DNA from: a virus
DNA length: 22,246 bases
Virus record (IMG/VR): IMGVR_UViG_3300021335_000102
Span: 1-22,246 of that record
Strand: one strand, 5' to 3'
Each line of letters starts with the position of its first letter. The stretch's first letter is position 1. The position numbers were made by a program, and so were the translations under genes. Of the stretch, positions 2,830 to 13,921 are shown piece after piece. The notes beneath the pieces were generated by a model. It searched no databases. It saw only the letters and a program-made list of their open reading frames with translations, and was not told where the DNA came from.

Positions 2830-2858
2830 TTGACATAAATACTTGTACGGACTATAAT
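2830..2858 (+). promoter_or_regulatory. Consensus sigma-70 (early) promoter
   Basis: TTGACA at 2830-2835 and TATAAT at 2853-2858 are both perfect matches to the bacterial housekeeping consensus, with an optimal 17-base spacer. The predicted start at about 2865-2867 coincides with the first pairing base of the riboswitch-like RNA at 2867. This is the strongest host-type promoter in the window. It would be read immediately on infection by host RNA polymerase. The spacer also contains ATAAATA at 2835-2841, a late-promoter-like motif. Confidence 0.9.
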
Positions 2859-2866
2859 AGTCTTGT

Positions 2867-2927
2867 CGTTCATTCCATTTGCTATTTGCGAATAACGAAT
2901 GGGACGCAAGTAAGCCGACTCGGAACG
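2867..2927 (+). promoter_or_regulatory. Glutamine-riboswitch-like aptamer (downstream-peptide / glnA type), copy 1
   Basis: The RNA begins at or within two bases of the promoter start. P1 pairs CGTTC (2867-2871) with GAACG (2923-2927). P2 pairs TCCATT (2874-2879) with AATGGG (2898-2903), continuing after a small interruption into TATT/AATA around a TGCG loop. The 3' segment GGGACGCAAGTAAGCCGACT (2901-2920) fits my memory of the conserved core of the glutamine riboswitches named glnA and Downstream-peptide, which occur in cyanobacteria and cyanophages upstream of short genes. A short gene does start 14 bases after P1. The fold is visible in the sequence; ligand identity is by family recognition only. 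Confidence 0.75.
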
Positions 2928-2930
2928 GAT

Positions 2931-3145
2931 CGTTCATCCTATGTTATCATTACTGTCTGTACTATTCATGCATGTCCCACAGGACATGTATCTCAGGTGT
3001 GAGGATTATGAGTGGTTAAAGGAGGGACTAGAGTCATCTACTCTTTTCACTCCTGCTGAGAAATCTGAGATTATCCTTAAATGGATTGAGCATACGGATC
3101 CTCACTGTTTTGATGACTAGGACGCAAAAGCCGACTGAAGGAACG
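2931..3145 (+). promoter_or_regulatory. Second glutamine-riboswitch-like element, interrupted by a gene (copy 2)
   Basis: Three bases after copy 1, CGTTC (2931-2935) appears again, followed by ATCCTATG. Its partner GAACG is at 3141-3145, 205 bases later, at the end of a core GGACGCAAAAGCCGACTGAA (3120-3139) that closely repeats copy 1's 3' segment. P2 would pair TCCTA (2937-2941) with TAGGA (3118-3122). The whole 59-codon gene 2941-3120 therefore sits in the P2 loop, its start A and its TAG stop being part of the stem. The element ends 35 bases before the DUF4278-like gene. Whether the two halves really fold together needs testing. Confidence 0.55.
2941..3120 (+). CDS. 59-aa protein nested inside riboswitch copy 2
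   Basis: ATG at 2941, TAG at 3118-3120. The product is a short acidic protein with a hydrophobic start (MLSLLSVLFMHV), a conserved-looking LRCEDYEWLKEGLE segment and an ending WIEHTDPHCFDD. I believe similar short proteins recur in cyanomyoviruses, from memory only. The ribosome site is poor: a GGA at 2927-2929 is 12 bases upstream and overlaps the end of aptamer P1, so aptamer folding could control access. This is the short peptide gene expected downstream of a Downstream-peptide-type riboswitch. No function is known, but a role linked to host nitrogen status is a natural guess. Confidence 0.7.
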   Translation: MLSLLSVLFMHVPQDMYLRCEDYEWLKEGLESSTLFTPAEKSEIILKWIEHTDPHCFDD

Positions 3146-3180
3146 GGTTTTAACTAACTCATTTCTTTAGGAGTAATCCA

Positions 3181-3312
3181 ATGTCTAAAGTCGTTTATCG
3201 TGGACAATCTTACGACACCGTAGAGCGTCGTGAGCAACAGCAACAACAGCAGCAACCTCAAGCATACAACGAAGCCTATCGTGGCATCAAGTTTGTTAAG
3301 GAGGCAAAATGA
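3181..3312 (+). CDS. DUF4278-like small protein with poly-Gln tract, 43 aa
   Basis: A strong AGGAG at 3169-3173 sits 7 bases before the ATG. The N-terminus VVYRGQSYD and the later AYRGIKF resemble the two YRG blocks of the cyanobacterial DUF4278 family (typically LTYRGVxY ... YRGxxW). Between them is a run of eight glutamines encoded by mixed CAA and CAG codons. The domain is common in cyanobacteria and cyanophages and has no known function. The gene lies just after riboswitch copy 2 and its TGA overlaps the next ATG. The family call is moderate because the protein is so short. Confidence 0.7.
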   Translation: MSKVVYRGQSYDTVERREQQQQQQQPQAYNEAYRGIKFVKEAK

Positions 3313-3505: not shown

Positions 3506-3675
3506 TGGAAGACTACACATATCATTATGATGATATGGATAAAGATAACAGACCACCTGCCTGCTATCAACTAACTTATAGAGGATGTAGGTATTGGTCT
3601 TGCTATCGAATACACTTGCGTGATTGGTTTGAACAGTTAATGACTTTCAAACCGATTTATAACAGGAGGGGTTGA
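3505..3675 (+). CDS. 56-aa protein with DUF4278-like motif
   Basis: ATG at 3505 overlaps the previous TAA. The centre of the protein reads CYQLTYRGCRYWSCYR, including the LTYRG block typical of DUF4278, followed by an aromatic, basic tail. It may be a distant relative of the 43-aa gene at 3181. It is the last gene of the mini-operon: its TGA at 3673-3675 lies in the loop of the terminator hairpin, whose 5' arm encodes the last residues NRRG. Confidence 0.6.
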   Translation: MEDYTYHYDDMDKDNRPPACYQLTYRGCRYWSCYRIHLRDWFEQLMTFKPIYNRRG

Positions 3676-3691
3676 ATACCCCTCTTTTTTT
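3664..3691 (+). terminator. Rho-independent terminator of the riboswitch mini-operon
   Basis: GAGGGGT (3666-3672) pairs with ACCCCTC (3678-3684) around a 5-base loop, extended by weaker pairs at the base, and is followed by a run of seven Ts at 3685-3691. The stop codon of the 56-aa gene is in the loop. It closes the unit that begins at the 2830 promoter. Confidence 0.9.
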
Positions 3692-3701
3692 GTGCTATAA
3701 T
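3672..3701 (+). promoter_or_regulatory. Sigma-70 promoter overlapping the terminator
   Basis: TTGAAT (3672-3677, four of six matches to the -35 consensus) and TATAAT (3696-3701, perfect) are spaced by 18 bases. The -35 lies in the loop of the terminator, so transcription stops and restarts within about 40 bases. Start would be near 3708, which makes the in-frame ATG at 3700 unusable and supports the ATG at 3721 for the next gene. Confidence 0.6.
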
Positions 3702-13738: not shown

Positions 13739-13921
13739 ATGGCTCATGAAAACCTTGAGTCATACTATAAAGTTAATTTTGCCTTGATTCAGCATCATAA
13801 ATATAGCTTGACGGAGCTTGAAAATATGATTCCTTGGGAAAGGGAAATTTATATCACTCTTCTCAAGCAACATATTGAAGATGAGAAATTGAGAGATCAA
13901 CAGGCTAACGGTGTATCTTAA
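13739..13921 (+). CDS. Small protein, possible tail chaperone extension, 60 aa
   Basis: A separate ATG at 13739 gives 60 residues, or the frame may be entered from upstream by a -1 shift. The ribosome site is poor (only AGG three bases before the ATG). The segment YSLTELENMIPWEREIYITLLKQHIEDEK resembles the C-terminal extensions of phage tail assembly chaperones, which typically have a Pro-(Trp/Tyr)-(Glu)-x-Glu-Ile-Tyr helix. The stop overlaps the tape-measure start (TAATG). In lambda-type phages the chaperone genes also precede the tape measure. The chaperone role is inference. Confidence 0.7.
   Translation: MAHENLESYYKVNFALIQHHKYSLTELENMIPWEREIYITLLKQHIEDEKLRDQQANGVS

Follow-up and report, generated by a model that had tools for sequence, protein, structure and literature searches.

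The window, i.e., the whole stretch of DNA analyzed here, comprises the 22,246 nucleotides of the IMG/VR virus record IMGVR_UViG_3300021335_000102; T4-like cyanophages (Kyanoviridae) are its closest relatives. At the locus under study, a promoter is followed by a repetitive RNA, a small ORF, and a gene for a small DUF4278-like protein. Repeat units were defined as A, the 5' parts (CGUUCAUCC-like), and B, the 3' parts (GGACGCAA...GAACG); the window carries A1 from 2867, B1 at 2901-2927, A2 from 2931, and B2 at 3118-3145. The features proposed, with the evidence for each, are as follows.

2830..2858, plus strand: sigma-70-type promoter TTGACA-17-TATAAT (12/12 matches; spacing to the RNA conserved among relatives)
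2867..2871, plus strand: P1 5' strand of A1, CGUUC, pairing with 3141-3145 as outer P1 (A1:B2 covariation)
2873..2904, plus strand: P2a hairpin, 2873-2879:2898-2904, UUCCAUU:AAUGGGA with one G-U (covariation, 177 distinct relatives)
2905..2912, plus strand: J23, CGCAAGUA, putatively contacting glutamine and supplying the AGUA half of the E-loop (fold knowledge as given in PMC6698751)
Within J23, plus strand: C2907, equivalent to nt23, pairing with G3146 (nt23:nt60 covariation, 269 relatives)
2913..2920, plus strand: P3 5' strand, AGCCGACU, pairing with 3129-3136 (core1/core2 covariation)
2923..2935, plus strand: P1' hairpin GAACG-GAU-CGUUC, 2923-2927:2931-2935, joining the P1 strands of B1 and A2 (B1:A2 paired in 292/292)
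2937..2941, plus strand: P2b 5' strand, UCCUA, holding the A of the ORF AUG and pairing with 3118-3122 (P2b covariation across the ORF)
2941..3120, plus strand: 59-codon ORF (phrog_13397; T4-GC 430 family), loop of P2b
3118..3122, plus strand: P2b 3' strand, UAGGA (pairs with 2937-2941)
3123..3128, plus strand: inner J23', CGCAAA, whose C3125 can pair with G2928 (inner nt23:nt60 C-G in 267/269)
3129..3136, plus strand: P3 3' strand, AGCCGACU (core1/core2 covariation)
3137..3140, plus strand: J31, GAAG, with the putative GAA half of the E-loop; overlapped by the ORF stop codon in relatives
3141..3146, plus strand: outer P1 3' strand, GAACG, and nt60 (G3146) (P1 and nt23:nt60 covariation)
3135..3170, plus strand: predicted alternative (OFF) hairpin, 3135-3149:3156-3170, reaching into the Shine-Dalgarno sequence (predicted fold)
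3181..3312, plus strand: gene for a DUF4278-like small protein of 43 aa, presumed target of regulation (E 0.015, below cut-off)

Promoter and transcript start

The perfect promoter reported by the initial annotation is indeed present, with -35 TTGACA at 2830-2835, a 17-nt spacer, and -10 TATAAT at 2853-2858 (12/12 consensus matches). Its placement of the aptamer start at or next to the promoter +1 also held: CGTTC, the 5' strand of P1, begins at 2867, 8 nt past the -10 box, and the predicted RNA start (about 7 nt past this box) lies 1-3 nt ahead of the aptamer. This spacing is conserved. Of the 185 relatives that combine a short first loop with 60 nt of upstream sequence, 127 show a -10 box matching at 5/6 positions or better with a gap of 4-15 nt (7-8 nt in 109), whereas random positions show an equally good box in 9.5% of cases. 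Elsewhere in the window, a second promoter-like site (TTGAAT-18-TATAAT, 3672-3701) precedes an ORF at 3700 and is overlapped by a terminator-like hairpin at 3664-3686, and a weak CRISPR repeat family match at 13818-13848 (30.5 bits, below the cut-off) is probably due to chance.

Covariation between the repeats

We parsed 306 sites and kept 270 complete A1-B1-A2-B2 sets; the 36 left out lack A1, A2, or B2, with 18 located near contig ends and 18 internal (chance matches, letters missed by the pattern, and loci interrupted by inserts among them). In the ordinary arrangement each repeat closes its own P1 (A1:B1 and A2:B2), whereas in the swapped one A1 pairs with B2 and B1 with A2. The fifth P1 pair is the variable position in some lineages, and loci with a variant P1 were fetched by variation on one strand only. 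In these variant lineages both ordinary P1s are broken, the unswapped helix still retaining 4/5 pairs. Over the 270 sets, the swapped P1s are intact and the ordinary ones broken in 57, the reverse occurs in 0, neither is intact in 1, and both are intact in the 212 for which P1 is uninformative. B1 pairs with A2 at 292 of 292 sites (GAACG/CGTTC, 231; CAACG/CGTTG, 61) and A1 with B2 at all but one of 275 (CGTTC/GAACG, 265; CGTTT/AAACG, 9; a mismatch in L159). When partners were reshuffled, the swapped P1 pairing was reached in 0/2000 trials, and the ordinary A1:B1 pairing was always reached. On a tree built from the ORF and the DNA downstream of it, changes in B1 and A2 coincide in 9/9 independent pairs and those in A1 and B2 in 2/2; A1 does not follow B1. 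The same tree places about 13 changes on the B1/A2 hairpin, which has repeatedly flipped between GAACG/CGUUC and CAACG/CGUUG (L226, L261, about 60 loci).

The other long-range elements follow the same exchange. P3 forms between repeats, core1 AGCCGACT with core2 AGCCGACT, the common 8-nt form carrying C-A/A-C mismatches at the third and sixth positions; its last pair is U-A, A-U, or G-C, its first pair is C-G in S-SRM01, and in a 5-bp form (AGTCG:CGACT, AGTCA:TGACT) both strands are shortened together. A long-range nt23:nt60 pair beside the glutamine site is described from glutamine-I and -II crystal structures (PMC6698751). In the swapped arrangement, nt23 of B1 and nt60 after B2 are C-G in 229 relatives, G-C in 37, and C-A in 3 (266/269 Watson-Crick), whereas the ordinary partners clash (G-G, 35; G-A, 2; C-C, 37). 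P2a is also supported, with the limitation that its ORF-containing forms lie weakly above reshuffling (35/2000 reach the observed pairing).

Comparative evidence therefore supports outer P1 (A1:B2), P2a (A1:B1), P3 (B1:B2), and P1' (B1:A2), as well as P2b (A2:B2) with its ORF loop and the long-range nt23(B1):nt60(B2) pair, and as far as sequence comparison can tell the composite swapped structure is almost certainly correct. Copy 1 (2867-2927) had been read as an independent, free-standing aptamer. Instead, the partners of its P1 and P3 strands are found in the 3' repeat, some 200-270 nt further downstream; the partner of its 3' P1 strand is in the next repeat. The core (GGGACGCAAGTAAGCCGACT at 2901-2920) and the kind of riboswitch stand, but the extent does not: with the GAAG junction and the P1 partner lying at 3137-3145, the element runs from 2867 to 3146, and 2867-2927 covers just its 5' part.

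Folding and covariance models

In an alignment of 23 ORF-less natural RNAs, S-PM2 included, RNAalifold picks the swapped P1s unprompted. They are also present in the minimum-energy fold (RNAfold) of 22/22 ORF-less RNAs, most of which lack P3 in this fold, and the swapped structure is lower in energy in 268/270 sets. P1 is invariant in the rows of this alignment; two-sided changes occur at 8 pairs of the swapped structure, including P3 and nt23:nt60, versus 5 of the ordinary one, for which one sequence disrupts both nt23:nt60 pairs.

Two further arrangements were considered and rejected. In a permuted aptamer, with B1 and A2 forming a complete compact unit, the P1 hairpin holds up, but B1:A2 pairing in P2 falls below that of reshuffled partners, so this unit is only part of the composite. 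A split but unswapped second aptamer has P2b right and P1 wrong.

In the Infernal search that had been proposed as a check, RF01739 matches the window at 2865-2931 with 23.9 bits, below the 35-bit cut-off (E of 0.32 in the all-family scan and 7.6e-5 in the one-family scan), and RF01704 has no match in the window up to E 10. The weak RF01739 score is likely explained by copy 1 lacking GAAG and the conserved P1 partner, which lie past the ORF at 3137-3145. Among 23 loci scanned, RF01739 spans the composite only in L059, at 40.2 bits, above the cut-off. In most other ORF-less loci it scores the copies singly (A2-B2, 35.0-37.6 bits in 6/11), and no match spanned an ORF in the relatives scanned. 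The RF01704 cut-off of 33 was passed by three relatives (L059, L181, and L042; 33.2-35.9 bits).

The composite has the hallmarks of glutamine-I RNAs: P1 CGUUC:GAACG closes a P2/P3 junction, and J23 with GUA (from B1), J31 GAAG (from B2), and nt23:nt60 are all present. AGUA is found in the J23 of B1 and GAAG in the J31 of B2; we take these junction halves to be those of an E-loop, as is general for the motif, so the composite alone has both halves. By analogy with the fold established for glutamine-I, the E-loop would be built from the AGUA of B1 and the GAA of B2, and glutamine would bind at P1/J23. Glutamine is very probably the ligand.

The enclosed ORF

In the window, the AUG begins in the A2 helix strand of P2b and the UAG stop lies in the B2 helix strand. 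The initial annotation had placed the RNA ahead of small-protein genes; the position is right, but the RNA itself encloses the ORF that seemed to be under external control. All 226 ORF-bearing relatives have the AUG 9-12 nt from the A2 start, inside P2b. The first in-frame stop is a U[GA]A overlapping J31, before P1, in 212 of them and falls 15-18 nt earlier than J31, as in the window, in 8. P2b covaries across this insert: of 95 loci chosen because B2 has A as its third P2b nucleotide, 88 have the matching U in A2 (UCU/AGA), 72 of these across an ORF, and the other 7 comprise 4 that are not aptamers and 3 that look misparsed (L338, L139, and L148). Pairing of P2b across the whole set of ORF-bearing loci is 81.2%, versus a maximum of 71.6% in 2000 reshufflings. 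Synonymous differences at the last five sense codons are 0.054, 0, 0.008, 0, and 0, versus 0.334 in mid-ORF, the frozen codons being those that overlap B2; the GCA codon of the inner J23' shows no synonymous change.

The enclosed proteins form one family (223/226 in one cluster), and nearly all have 49-68 residues. They share two conserved cysteines and a tail, DAKAD/DAND, encoded by B2, and have no convincing Pfam match. They show a short hydrophobic N terminus, the near-invariant cysteines being C20 and C56 in the numbering of the window protein, and one relative, L352, has a start resembling that of a secreted protein. In 82/83 ORF-type first loops (e.g., L002 1304-1504 and L288 1812-2015), P2a holds another small protein family (T4-GC 429), its stop lying 8 nt into B1 in 51/82 and 3 nt before B1 in 12/82.

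Distribution in relatives

Among 412 distinct B sites in the loci gathered first, those of B1 type (CGGAACG) are closely trailed by an A in 201/202 cases, nearly always at 3-6 nt, and those of B2 type (AAGGAACG) in 0/203. The 270 sets comprise 165 with a short and then an ORF loop, 61 with ORFs in both, 22 with an ORF and then a short loop, and 22 with both short; hence, the RNA occurs without ORFs, and either P2 loop may hold one. All 17 cyanophage records examined, each selected because it was a BLAST hit, contain the element, as do many IMG/VR contigs. P-SSM4 and P-HM1 have ORFs in both loops, and the RNAs of S-PM2 and P-SSM2, which lie outside the 270 sets, read as the same composite. No cyanobacterium was among the matches listed in a scan of genome contigs.

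Some loci carry additional elements. In Sf-CH5 (L293, about 2030-2619), L365, L367, and L372, a large insert between B1 and A2 forms the loop of the P1' hairpin; that of Sf-CH5 is annotated as a homing endonuclease, and the endonuclease insertion yielded no Rfam intron. An HNH-like gene (L499 cluster) follows B2 in 3/259 loci. A strong manA RNA lies about 90 nt upstream of the composite in P-SSM4 (L002 1019-1204) and elsewhere in the contig in L059 (1299-1496) and L185 (867-1066), manA scores being 160-184 bits overall.

Downstream gene and predicted alternative hairpin

A Shine-Dalgarno sequence, AGGAG at 3169-3173, lies between B2 and the DUF4278-like gene. The targets had been called uncharacterized but can be assigned at the level of the family: 256/259 downstream genes form one cluster, and all 29 members scanned hit DUF4278 (E up to 0.1). 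This family is reported as a glutamine-riboswitch target in cyanobacteria (PMC6316151).

The end of P3, J31, and P1 (CUGAAGGAACGGGUU, 3135-3149) can pair with AACUCAUUUCUUUAG (3156-3170) in a predicted OFF hairpin. A strand exchange of this type is predicted in 180/218 distinct leaders and is missing in 38/218; the freshwater relatives L004 and L005 have no such hairpin. Leaders with a J31 AAAG have the partner CUUUAG or CUUUGG in 34/35 cases and never CUUCAG/UUUCAG, which occurs 28 times among 186 other leaders. The fold energy of window positions 3118-3200 is unexceptional (z -1.49).

Discussion

Our comparative data suggest that 2867-3146 is probably one glutamine-I-type riboswitch aptamer built from two strand-swapped repeats with a small ORF inside. 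Glutamine riboswitches, their occurrence in cyanophages (PMC9964418, PMC9602691), and tandem arrangements are already known. With glutamine-I (glnA, RF01739) the composite shares P1 CGUUC:GAACG, the A that follows it, P2, J23 CGNAAGUA, P3, J31 GAAG, the long-range nt23:nt60 pair, and a DUF4278 target; unlike it, P3 here opens into a second domain (P1' hairpin and P2b) with the ORF in P2b, and P1 and P3 strands are exchanged between the two repeats. The strand CGUUCA-hairpin-CGCA with GAACG recalls glutamine-II (Downstream-peptide, RF01704), as do the marine picocyanobacterial setting and the short ORFs nearby (PMC2864571). However, glutamine-II is described as a pseudoknot (PMC6698751), whereas the helices found here nest, with only nt23:nt60 as an extra pair, and the ORF lies inside.

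Functional RNAs with halves far apart have a precedent in the discontinuous hammerhead ribozyme of mammalian mRNAs, where the insert is 3' UTR; here the insert is a translated-type gene whose ends coincide with helices. As in the domain-swapped glutamine-II dimer in crystal 6QN3, the glutamine-site helix forms between strands of two repeats. That dimer comprises two molecules and is presumed to be absent in vivo (PMC7357161), whereas the arrangement described here is encoded in cis and conserved. Searches of open-licence PMC papers listed no report of cis strand-swapped repeats or of a gene inside a glutamine aptamer, and an earlier mention is possible.

Other explanations for these data deserve consideration. 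The swapped pairings might represent the ligand-free state of a two-fold switch in which unswapped tandem aptamers bind glutamine. The ability of 212/270 loci to form both P1 sets and the local, fast-forming nature of the B1:A2 hairpin would suit such a switch, but nt23:nt60 and the E-loop halves, which are parts of the ligand-bound junction, also follow the swap and 57 loci are unable to form both ordinary P1s perfectly, which makes it unlikely. Alternatively, the RNA could be a ligand-free translated leader or attenuator whose pairings gate only the translation of the ORF and of the DUF4278-like gene, or bind a protein. We regard this as quite unlikely: it accommodates the coincidence of ORF ends with structural boundaries and the widely predicted OFF hairpin, but not the retention of the glutamine-contact nucleotides and of J23/J31 of RF01739, the preservation of the whole RNA in ORF-less forms, or the match between its target family and known glutamine riboswitch targets.

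Glutamine-I aptamers in tandem are like the present RNA in having two aptamer repeats before one gene, and 157 doublets and 4 triplets have been reported (PMC9481103). In this 2022 survey, only tandems without intervening ORFs were counted, and they were treated as separate riboswitches. Two ordinary, independent (pseudo-cooperative) aptamers, the P2 loop of the second containing an ORF, would also explain why Rfam scores the copies singly in most ORF-less relatives. Independence would give each repeat its own P1, which is not what the 270 sets revealed (57 ordinary-broken/swapped-intact, 0 reverse); P1, P3, and nt23:nt60 covary when swapped and are broken in the ordinary arrangement, copy 1 is devoid of GAAG, and copy 2 is devoid of GUA. 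This reading is thus already disfavored and very unlikely. A single aptamer at 2867-2927 regulating downstream small proteins, as first annotated, is hardly credible in spite of its 23.9-bit RF01739 match and rightly placed promoter, since that score is below the family cut-off, GAAG is missing, and the conserved P1 partner lies at 3141-3145.

Returning to the single composite aptamer, known glutamine riboswitches are described as switching such genes on with glutamine (PMC6316151, PMC6698751), and an ON switch fits here because these riboswitches activate genes of this kind; we consider it reasonably likely that the composite is an ON switch for the DUF4278-like gene. Transcription would begin at +1 of the early-type promoter. 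Glutamine would then close the composite: P2b would mask the start codon of the ORF, and the aptamer would retain J31 together with the 3' strand of P1, leaving the DUF4278-like Shine-Dalgarno sequence free (ON). Without glutamine, J31 and the P1 strand would be free to form the 3135-3170 hairpin into the Shine-Dalgarno sequence (OFF). Ribosomes on the ORF would pull apart P2b, and P3 in most relatives, and stop on J31, favoring the OFF hairpin. Both the hiding of the start by P2b and the undoing of the aptamer by ribosomes are suggested by the geometry; if aptamer closure hides the ORF start and ribosomes undo the aptamer, the two would exclude each other and give two opposite outputs. That ORF translation and glutamine sensing are mutually exclusive in this way seems just on the likely side. 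More tentatively, the inner junction (P1', P2b, CGC, and its own nt23:nt60) might be a second glutamine site, making the RNA a natural cis-encoded domain-swapped pair. Two glutamines could then lock the RNA around the ORF cooperatively, so that one binding event would hide one start codon and uncover the ribosome site of the other gene, with translation of the enclosed gene as a competing input.

If correct, our findings depict two interlocked repeats that together make up a riboswitch aptamer with a translated gene enclosed in it. Defined compensatory mutants would allow a direct test of strand swapping in a natural RNA and of competition between translation and ligand sensing. Marine tandem glutamine riboswitches, so far counted separately, may likewise be one interlocked device. 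The carriers are viruses of ocean and lake cyanobacteria, and such a device would tie phage genes to host nitrogen status.
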